From: Terriglobus sp. TAA 43
Lineage (GTDB): Bacteria > Acidobacteriota > Terriglobia > Terriglobales > Acidobacteriaceae
Direction: 5' to 3'
Assembly (NCBI RefSeq): GCF_000800015.1
Contig: NZ_JUGR01000003.1
Coordinates: 275,071-339,070, forward strand
Length of the DNA stretch: 64,000 nucleotides
The position numbers were made by a program, and so were the translations under genes. The notes under the pieces are model-generated. The model was not told where the DNA came from. It worked only from the letters and a program-made list of their open reading frames with translations, and did no database searches. Shown here one piece after another: positions 13,069 through 61,281 of this stretch (within the stretch, counting starts at the first letter, position 1; the number at the start of each line of letters is the position of its first letter).

Positions 13069-13490
13069 TTAAGCTGTCAGTGTCGATGAAGCGGGATTTT
13101 GACCAGTGATCAGTCGGCCATCGGCGATTGTGAAGGGCTCCCAGTTCTTCTTCTTTTCGAAGATCGCACCAAGCCTTAGCAACTCATCTTCGGCGAGGAA
13201 TGCGACGACCTTGGTCAGCTGAACCTCTTCCTCCTCGCCGTTCGTGAAACCAGTCACCTGTTTACCTTTCACTAAGGGTTCGCCCTTGTACTTCACATGA
13301 CGCAACACACCCGAAGATTGGCAAGCCAACGCGATAGGCTTCCCGGAATCGTAGAACGATTCAAGAAGGGCGATCGAGACCGGATCTCCGCCAGATCCCA
13401 CATCGGCCCGTGCCCTTCCGTGTAGAGGCCGTGTCGAAATCCTCTGCTCGTACTTTGGAAGTGCTTTACCGTATTTGCGAAGGAGAGCGG
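13069..13490 (-). pseudogene. PfpI/Hsp31-like (DJ-1 superfamily) protein, frameshifted and 5'-truncated
   Basis: The main frame encodes 110 residues, including IALLESFYDSGKPIALACQS (with the nucleophile-position Cys) and KGKQVTGFTNGEEEEVQLTK, typical of the Hsp31/chaperone-like DJ-1 group. Upstream, the expected GGHGPMWDLAED segment is found as TEGHGPMWDLAE in a second frame, and KVRAEDFDT in a third. At least two frameshifts (near 13400 and 13425) therefore separate them. The N-terminal third is absent, and homology stops where repeat copy 1 begins. The 3' end lies three bases from the ADOP remnant. Confidence 0.65.
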
Positions 13491-13653
13491 CGAAGCGGAA
13501 CGGAAAGGGCCAAGCGCAACGAAGGTCTGCACGAGCCGAAGGTGCGGAAGATTGGGGACACCCTTACGCCGCGCCAAGGAGGAGTCCTCAGCAAAGCTTG
13601 GTTTCCTTGTCTGCGCGTGGGACGCGCGCTCCAACTAAGGGAGGGCGTTGCGG
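13488..13653 (+). repeat. Structured interspersed element, copy 1 (5' module missing)
   Basis: This copy shares with those at 56050 and 60928 a core running from AACGAAGGTCTGCAC through a GCGG...CCGC stem to a GC-rich terminal hairpin. Here the terminal hairpin is GCGCGT-GGG-ACGCGC at 13613-13627. Nested inside the long stem is a GGG-ACA-CCC hairpin. The roughly 95-bp 5' module seen in the other copies is absent; instead the element abuts the truncated PfpI-like pseudogene. Downstream it keeps the AGGGCGTTGCG tail also seen in copy 3. Confidence 0.7.
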
Positions 13654-13869
13654 CAAGTAACGTCCGGCTGATGTGGGTGGCAAAACACACACGAAGCGCC
13701 GGAGACAGAGAGGTATTCCTCCCACCAAGCCAGCTCAGTCCTCAACCGCCGGATACGCGGGTCCTTGACACGAACAGGTATCGAGCCGGTTGGATTCCGA
13801 CAAGTCCGCGAGTGTGCTTTCCGCCTACTCCTGGGATTCAAGGGAAAACTGCCAGGCGCGCTCTGCTCA

Positions 13870-56049: not shown

Positions 56050-56255
56050 GGCATGCACATGCCGAACGACTATGTGGCGAACGGTGGGGCGGCAAAGTGC
56101 AAGGGGAGGGGTCTCACCCATCCTTGAAGAGCAGCGAAGGTCTGCACAAGCGCCAGCGCGGAAGACTGGGGACACCCCTTGCGCCGCGCCAGGGCGGAGC
56201 CCTCAGCAAGGTTTGGTTTCCTTATTGAGTGCGTGCCAACGCACACCAACTAAGT
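56050..56255 (+). repeat. Structured interspersed element, copy 2
   Basis: This full copy starts with the hairpin GGCAT-GCAC-ATGCC and continues through a module shared with copy 3, then the common core. The core has an outer stem GCGCGG/CCGCGC, an inner GGGG-ACA-CCCC hairpin, an AGGGC-GGA-GCCCT hairpin and a terminal GTGCGT-GCCA-ACGCAC hairpin at 56229-56244. It lies in an intergenic gap and lacks the short A-rich insert found in copy 3 before the core. Confidence 0.75.
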
Positions 56256-60927: not shown

Positions 60928-61176
60928 CGGCATGCCTATGCCGAACGCCCACGTGGCGAACGGCGGGGCGGCAAGGTGCAGGGGGAGGGGTCTCTCCCAT
61001 CCTAGGAGCGAAATGAAATGAAGCGGAAAGGACGAAGCGCAGCGAAGGTCTGCACAAGCGTCAGCGCGGAAGACTGAGGATACCCCTTGCGTCGCGCCAG
61101 GGCGGAGCCCTCAGCTAGGTTTGTTTTCCGCATCCGTGCGCGTGAGCGCACAGCAACTTCAGGAAGGGCGTTGCGA
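60928..61176 (+). repeat. Structured interspersed element, copy 3
   Basis: The longest copy. It starts with a CGGCAT-GCCT-ATGCCG hairpin, continues with the 5' module shared with copy 2, a short insert GAAATGAAATGAAGCGGAAAG (partly present in copy 1) and the core. The outer stem GCGCG/CGCGC, the AGGGC-GGA-GCCCT hairpin and the terminal GTGCGC-GTGA-GCGCAC hairpin (61136-61151) are kept. It lies in an intergenic gap and is followed at 61182 by a word also found at 40962. Confidence 0.75.
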
Positions 61177-61281
61177 GAAGGAACGAGTCTGTTACGAAAC
61201 TCGTTGGCGGTCATCAGGTACCTTGTGTTGCTGGAGATAAGACGACTTATCGGTAGTGATGGCCCGCAGGCCGTGCTTGGC

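Follow-up and report, generated by a model that had tools for sequence, protein, structure and literature searches.

The repeat that occurs three times in this stretch of DNA belongs to a strongly structured family found on plasmids and in genomes of several bacterial phyla, and selection on its base pairing is strongly supported. The strand that folds serves as the template for the gene on its 5' side, which is most often ardC. At about an even chance, we read the element as a signal resembling a single-stranded DNA (ssDNA) promoter, of a new structural class, that heads establishment genes. The stretch analysed, called the window here, comprises 64,000 nucleotides and forms the last 64 kb of a 339,070-base contig (C3) of the source genome.

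A sequence-only reading had placed three copies on the plus strand of the window. A covariance model, R1, built from 13 equally spaced sequences from outside the window, recovers all three at those sites and on that strand. The extents given earlier hold as positions but fall short at the end of copy 1, where recognisable sequence continues to about 13723, and the whole unit is larger. The terminal hairpins are present as described, and the hairpin AGGGC-GGA-GCCCT occurs in copies 2 and 3. The parts of the three copies, in window coordinates, are as follows.

56050–56244, plus strand: copy 2, the best preserved of the orphan copies, running from the 5' palindrome GGCATGCACATGCC up to the terminal hairpin (R1 74.1 bits at 56097–56184)
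56074–56082, plus strand: copy 2, GTGGCGAAC with the GGCGA motif, in the region left of P1
56097–56106, plus strand: copy 2, 5' arm of stem P1, GTGCAAGGGG (R1 match and covariation)
56107–56119, plus strand: copy 2, AGGGGTCTCACCC, whose CCC is predicted to pair with the GGG of 56168–56171
56139–56150, plus strand: copy 2, GGTCTGCACAAG, near-invariant core and 5' arm of P3
56158–56167, plus strand: copy 2, GCGGAAGACT, near-invariant core and 3' arm of P3
56175–56184, plus strand: copy 2, 3' arm of stem P1, CCCCTTGCGC (R1 match)
56191–56203, plus strand: copy 2, hairpin P5, AGGGC-GGA-GCCCT (similar hairpins in other loci were picked for their pairing and so are no test of it)
56229–56244, plus strand: copy 2, terminal hairpin P6, GTGCGT-GCCA-ACGCAC
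60929–61203, plus strand: copy 3, orphan, ending in GTTACGAAACTCG (R1 61.4 bits at 60976–61092)
60976–60985, plus strand: copy 3, 5' arm of P1, GTGCAGGGGG (R1 match)
61083–61092, plus strand: copy 3, 3' arm of P1, CCCCTTGCGT, with wobbles in the pairing (R1 match)
61047–61075, plus strand: copy 3, core GGTCTGCACAAG..GCGGAAGACT
61136–61151, plus strand: copy 3, terminal hairpin P6, GTGCGC-GTGA-GCGCAC
13488–13723, plus strand: copy 1, 5'-truncated and decayed, right end with GAGAGGTATTCCTCCC (R1 29 bits, E 1.7e-4, at 13489–13570)
13524–13553, plus strand: copy 1, core GGTCTGCACGAG..GCGGAAGATT
13613–13627, plus strand: copy 1, terminal hairpin P6, GCGCGT-GGG-ACGCGC

Three ORFs that overlap copies have no Pfam match, in agreement with the earlier view that they are artefacts. 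An AraC-type gene lies to the left of copy 2 and a DUF3738 gene to the left of copy 3, both on the plus strand, and the small ORF to the left of copy 1 has no Pfam family. No ardC lies beside any of the three; given these left neighbours, the window copies are orphans that head no ardC. The left flank of copy 1 (window 13206–13481) is 83% alike to positions 78452–78728 of contig C3, which lie a little more than 1 kb left of another copy, a likeness that may reflect the duplication, and later shortening, of an ancestral neighbourhood. Some copies end on the right with GTTACGAAACT, the reverse complement of the left end of others (AGTTTCGTAAC). Such end pairs are seen at window 61191–61203 (copy 3), in L008, in L038 from 13131 and in L043 from 14215, as if these copies had a short inverted end in common.

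The decisive covarying helix is P1, formed in copy 2 by 56097–56106 with 56175–56184. A first MAFFT/RNAalifold consensus and single-sequence folds of the window copies did not settle this helix; hand segmentation of diverse loci found it. As MAFFT misaligned P1 where lengths varied, the covariance model was built from the equally spaced sequences. The inner hairpin GGG-ACA-CCC proposed earlier draws on the 3' arm of P1; the main helix itself had been missed. The inner stem takes 49 distinct forms among 63 distinct loci (63 of 92 loci remain after filters and de-duplication, and some visibly wrong P1 registers were kept).

Two alignments, both fitted to a model in which G.U is a permitted pair, show that selection acts on the structure, as the sequence-only reading had supposed. 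The first, A5, takes in 55 of 56 plasmid elements (the one at W04 40208 was left out) and contains 45 distinct copies. Within it, 94.6% of cells are paired and 15 of 22 pairs show double changes; double-change cells number 193, against a mean of 57.7 in shuffled alignments and at most 39 when the partners are slid. A6 consists of 66 distinct acidobacterial copies, mostly contig loci and including those of the window and others from the source genome. Here 97.0% of cells are paired, 12 of 22 pairs have double changes, and the 138 double-change cells compare with a shuffled mean of 36.3 and at most 40 with slid partners. Pairing in P3 (GGTCT with AGAYT) likewise covaries in plasmids, as GCCCT with AGGGT and GGCCT with AGGCC. 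By eye, P5 and the terminal hairpin recur in other loci. The 18 and 21 stems returned for P5 and P6 are no test of covariation, because the scan picks the best-paired hairpin in each stretch and several are plainly neither. An outer stem GCGCGG/CCGCGC, also put forward from the sequence, is not supported as a conserved pairing: in a permissive scan it could form in 39 of 59 acidobacterial and 12 of 32 other loci, with its left side hardly varying. Single-sequence folding of copy 2 nonetheless prefers this stem.

The family is multi-copy and lies outside Rfam, as had been anticipated. The source genome holds six copies (blastn, E up to 0.001), all on the plus strand of contig C3, with none on the other six contigs; a genome-wide search with R1 finds five of the six, missing copy 1. 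Blastn matches occur in 15 of 61 genomes, source included, and 14 of these are within the genus. R1 reaches further, with matches in 52 of 200 genomes of the order, in 9 of 57 genera. An exact pattern gives at least 119 loci in named genomes, and 92 of the 119 listed carry GGTCTGCACAAGC. The 27 listed loci without the form GCACAAGC were left out of the contig-locus counts below; among the matches listed, they comprise Mesorhizobium and other matches that look coding by eye, and some may be real, since window copy 1 itself has GCACGAGC. Record titles among the matches listed name Acidobacteriaceae, Bryobacterales, Planctomycetes, Verrucomicrobia, Bradyrhizobium, Tardiphaga and Thiothrix, several of them metagenome bins whose taxon labels are possibly wrong.

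On plasmids the element is often repeated. Four blastn queries matched 23, 5, 74 and 63 plasmid records, in overlapping sets, and most of the listed matches have no annotated feature under them. Across 24 plasmids R1 matches 23, a proportion that is no measure of frequency because the 24 were hand-picked from blastn hits; the 56 elements reach up to seven per plasmid and, where there are several, mostly share one orientation. The fold is also kept in copies on chromosome-sized contigs, for example one of 5.1 Mb (G007:C1). With one element as query there was no match in 20,395 E. coli records or in a phage collection; a single viral-contig match looks like chance by eye. Rfam 15 yielded no match to the element at the gathering score or at the E-value limits used, and the three hits of one relaxed search scored far short of gathering. 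HEARO, considered early, is among the Rfam families with no match. No published description of the element was found in the open-access literature, from which many papers are missing.

Genes beside the element point to its context. At the 92 contig loci, a tblastn search of the 700 nt to the left finds ardC (56 loci) or parB (6) on the opposite strand, at a median of 135 nt from the core; 25 loci have neither and 5 have too little flank. None of the 92 has ardC or parB on the plus strand to its left, and only L154 has a gene of this type within 700 nt to the right, a parB match stronger than the one on its left. In annotated plasmid stretches the left gene lies on the opposite strand for 26 of 26 elements and encodes ArdC/zincin, ParB, DUF3768, DUF932, DUF3560, one MerR-like regulator, one IS3 transposase or hypothetical proteins. 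By an ad hoc picking rule with no null control, 35 of 46 plasmid copies have a start codon, accompanied by a ribosome-binding motif, at 68–112 nt from P1; in 8 it falls elsewhere, and in 3 none was picked. This spacing and the row listing used 46 of the 55 A5 elements; eight of those omitted repeat kept rows, and L224 does not. The source genome has two ArdcN domains, one in a 385-aa open frame and one with an internal stop, both beside elements outside the window. In two sphingomonad plasmids (L170-L171 and L173), reverse transcriptase/maturase genes are annotated within the ardC region and seemingly split it.

Several of these loci bear on the reading of the repeat as a non-autonomous mobile element, which the sequence-only reading had raised as one possibility; a REP/RAYT-like element is not supported. 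Six copies are scattered over the source genome, and a 3.5-kb unit, consisting of the element, ardC (PF08401), DUF6908 (PF21849) and parB (PF02195), appears with sharp ends and unlike flanks in five of nine stretches from this genome and its relatives. The unit recurs at unlike sites, with no recombinase (L037 12779–16328, L038 13131–16646, L039, L043 and L045). No transposase is seen within it, the ends of five units, compared for short shared words, show no clear target duplication, and ends differ between copies. Outside this family the plasmid elements adjoin different genes, and the element stays tied to the 5' side of genes such as ardC and parB. We regard mobility as the explanation of the repeat as very unlikely. 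One acidobacterial copy (L042 16892–18884, in reversed coordinates) is split by about 2 kb that contains an IS110-like ORF.

Wobble pairs indicate which strand folds, because a wobble on the opposite strand would appear as A.C on the plus strand. A5 contains 54 G.T and 2 A.C on the plus strand, although the model behind its alignment accepts G.U; when Watson–Crick pairs alone decided the P1 registers, the counts are 24 and 8. The H1 hairpin, with its GGCGA loop, carries no strand signal when taken alone (G.T 5, A.C 3). From the excess of G.T over A.C, the plus strand is the one that folds and, as the left gene is on the opposite strand, the strand that folds is also the one that templates this 5' neighbour. 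A fold there would matter only if that strand is ssDNA or is itself transcribed, so the folding molecule would be either single-stranded DNA or a divergent RNA, and no leader of that gene. The structured RNA family suggested earlier would correspond to the second of these. If the element were a 5' leader RNA or riboswitch for ardC and similar genes, it would sit at a suitable distance from the start codon, but on the coding strand its G.U pairs would appear as A.C on the plus strand, and the 54-to-2 count leaves this reading with hardly any probability.

A divergent RNA is the main rival, albeit an unlikely one. The element would then be a non-coding RNA gene on the plus strand, transcribed divergently from ardC and similar genes, whose structured product would bind protein or act antisense to the neighbouring leader. 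Folding of the plus strand fits, and the complex fold, near-invariant loops and G.U-tolerant helices resemble functional RNA. Against this, the opposite gene has its ribosome-binding site and start codon near the 5' side, which leaves little room for a plus-strand promoter outside that gene. Sigma70 hexamers are not enriched on the plus strand, no Rfam model matches, and by eye most aligned rows have no T-run after P5.

The position of relaxase genes connects the folding strand to conjugation. According to PMC11541004, the lagging region is the typical place of relaxases, and leading-region genes are served by ssDNA promoters (Frpo). We assumed that oriT lies just upstream of the relaxase gene and that the relaxase gene enters last. 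The element strand is, by majority, opposite to the relaxase strand in 17 of 19 MOBP/MOBQ plasmids (two-sided binomial p 7e-4) and 44 of 49 elements are opposite to the relaxase; if oriT does lie upstream of that gene, the plus strand is the transferred strand in those 17. On the presumed leading side, 33 of 49 elements fall within 25 kb of the relaxase gene against 17.7 expected, three of the 33 being reversed. W08 and W20 are exceptions to the orientation rule, and W05, W10 and W13 have one reversed element each. In W16, W20, W21, W22 and W23 all elements are more than 50 kb ahead of the relaxase gene, outside the near leading region. Five of the 24 plasmids were left out of the count: W14, with a relaxase below cut-off and two elements opposite and one on the same strand; W15, with no R1 hit; W24, with no relaxase by three families; and W17 and W18, which have TrwC only, on the element's strand, and with which the rule would hold in 17 of 21 plasmids. 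The rule mostly restates the orientation of leading-region genes and does not by itself tell ssDNA from RNA. Two Caulobacter plasmids each have a single extra, reversed element (W05 10331, which is L242, and W10 58968, which is L230) at roughly 1 kb from the relaxase gene; in pCB4 the extra element heads a MerR-like gene at the presumed oriT. On contig C3 of the source genome TrwC and VirB4 are on the minus strand and the elements on the plus strand. As both genes are present, the contig is likely a conjugative plasmid or the carrier of an integrated one.

We favour the ssDNA reading because every conjugative plasmid is single-stranded on entry and ssDNA promoters do this work in F and ColIb-P9, where they express genes from the entering strand, as described in PMC11541004 and PMC8708921. 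The plasmid would enter the recipient as a single strand and the plus strand of the element, probably as transferred ssDNA, would fold. RNA polymerase or primase might then start at the folded element and make the mRNA of the neighbouring gene, for example ardC, so that the incoming plasmid would express ardC-like genes before its second strand is made. For R388, PMC7213743 reports that ardC is required in the recipient and not in the donor. From 5' to 3', the predicted order on the folding strand is a hairpin beside the ribosome-binding site, the hairpin with the GGCGA loop, an outer CAAGG/CCTTG pairing, P1 and P5, the outer parts being seen by eye only; P1 would enclose the near-invariant core, GGTCTGCACAAG..GCGGAAGAY in Acidobacteria. 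Pairs of sigma70 -35 and -10 hexamers showed no excess over shuffled sequence on either strand of five regions, in a scan run with no positive control. The element is for this reason not filed as Frpo, and it may be read by a factor other than sigma70, or by primase. This is the main result against an ssDNA promoter. Also against it, the elaborate fold with near-invariant loops exceeds the needs of a simple promoter, the fold is kept on chromosome-sized contigs too, all elements of five plasmids lie far from the relaxase gene, and the orientation is reversed for 5 of 49 elements and, by majority, for 2 of 19 plasmids.

The same strand and region would also suit an ssi-like priming site on the transferred strand, at which primase starts the second strand and the proximity of genes is incidental or a dual function. 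The presence of up to seven copies per plasmid agrees with this, as do TOPRIM or DUF3991/TOPRIM proteins annotated on two of these plasmids, and Frpo itself has both roles according to a title among the references of PMC11541004. The near-constant 68–112 nt to the start codon in 35 of 46 copies would be unexpected for a pure priming site, and we find this reading quite unlikely. Slightly less likely still is a folded strand that serves as a docking site for a plasmid ssDNA-binding protein (ArdC, SSB or ParB-like) and so regulates or protects the entering strand. PMC7213743 describes ssDNA binding by ArdC, ardC and parB are the commonest neighbours, and the near-invariant loops fit as well; yet the adjoining genes vary (DUF3768, DUF932, ParB, ArdC) while the core stays, so that no single protein is the constant neighbour.

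Returning to the ssDNA-promoter-like signal, we propose, with rather less than even confidence, a broader statement. The family may constitute a new class of folded ssDNA control elements, unrelated to Frpo and free of sigma70 hexamers, that stand ahead of the genes for establishment and anti-restriction on conjugative plasmids of Pseudomonadota, Acidobacteriota, Planctomycetota and further groups and work only while the plasmid is single-stranded in its new host. Early plasmid gene expression before double-strandedness is best known from the Frpo/ssi of F and ColIb-P9. With a family that a covariance model recognises on plasmids of alpha-, beta- and gammaproteobacteria as well as in records of Acidobacteriota and Planctomycetota, early expression would become testable outside enterics. 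The element would mark leading regions, and the genes behind it would yield predictions of unknown anti-defence genes.

Among known systems, the element resembles the structured RNAs of Rfam 15 in its compensatory pairs and conserved loops but is matched by no model there. It differs from REP/RAYT elements and MITEs in that no transposase-linked ends or target duplications were seen in the short words shared by the ends of five units, and from cis leader RNAs and riboswitches in that its fold is not on the coding strand of the downstream gene. Like the EGeRS of pLS20-family plasmids, in the account of PMC8708921, it is a conserved sequence that would govern establishment genes. The same account gives the transferred strand of pLS20 as the non-template strand and judges ssDNA promoters highly unlikely there; in our element the folding strand is the template strand. 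Frpo is defined by -35/-10 hexamers in a duplex, of which none was detected in the element (no excess, in the scan with no positive control), and the GC-rich fold with near-invariant loops also sets the element apart from Frpo/ssi. One element, used as query, had no match in the E. coli collection. The closest parallels are nonetheless the Frpo/ssi of the F and ColIb-P9 leading regions, which PMC11541004 and PMC8708921 describe as inverted repeats, present in several copies per plasmid and upstream of several operons, whose folding strand templates leading-region and anti-restriction genes. Our element too has its secondary structure on the template strand, and it sits ahead of leading-region genes whose template is the transferred strand (judged by orientation, in 17 of 19 plasmids, with oriT assumed upstream of the relaxase gene; in 5 of the 19 the elements are more than 50 kb away).
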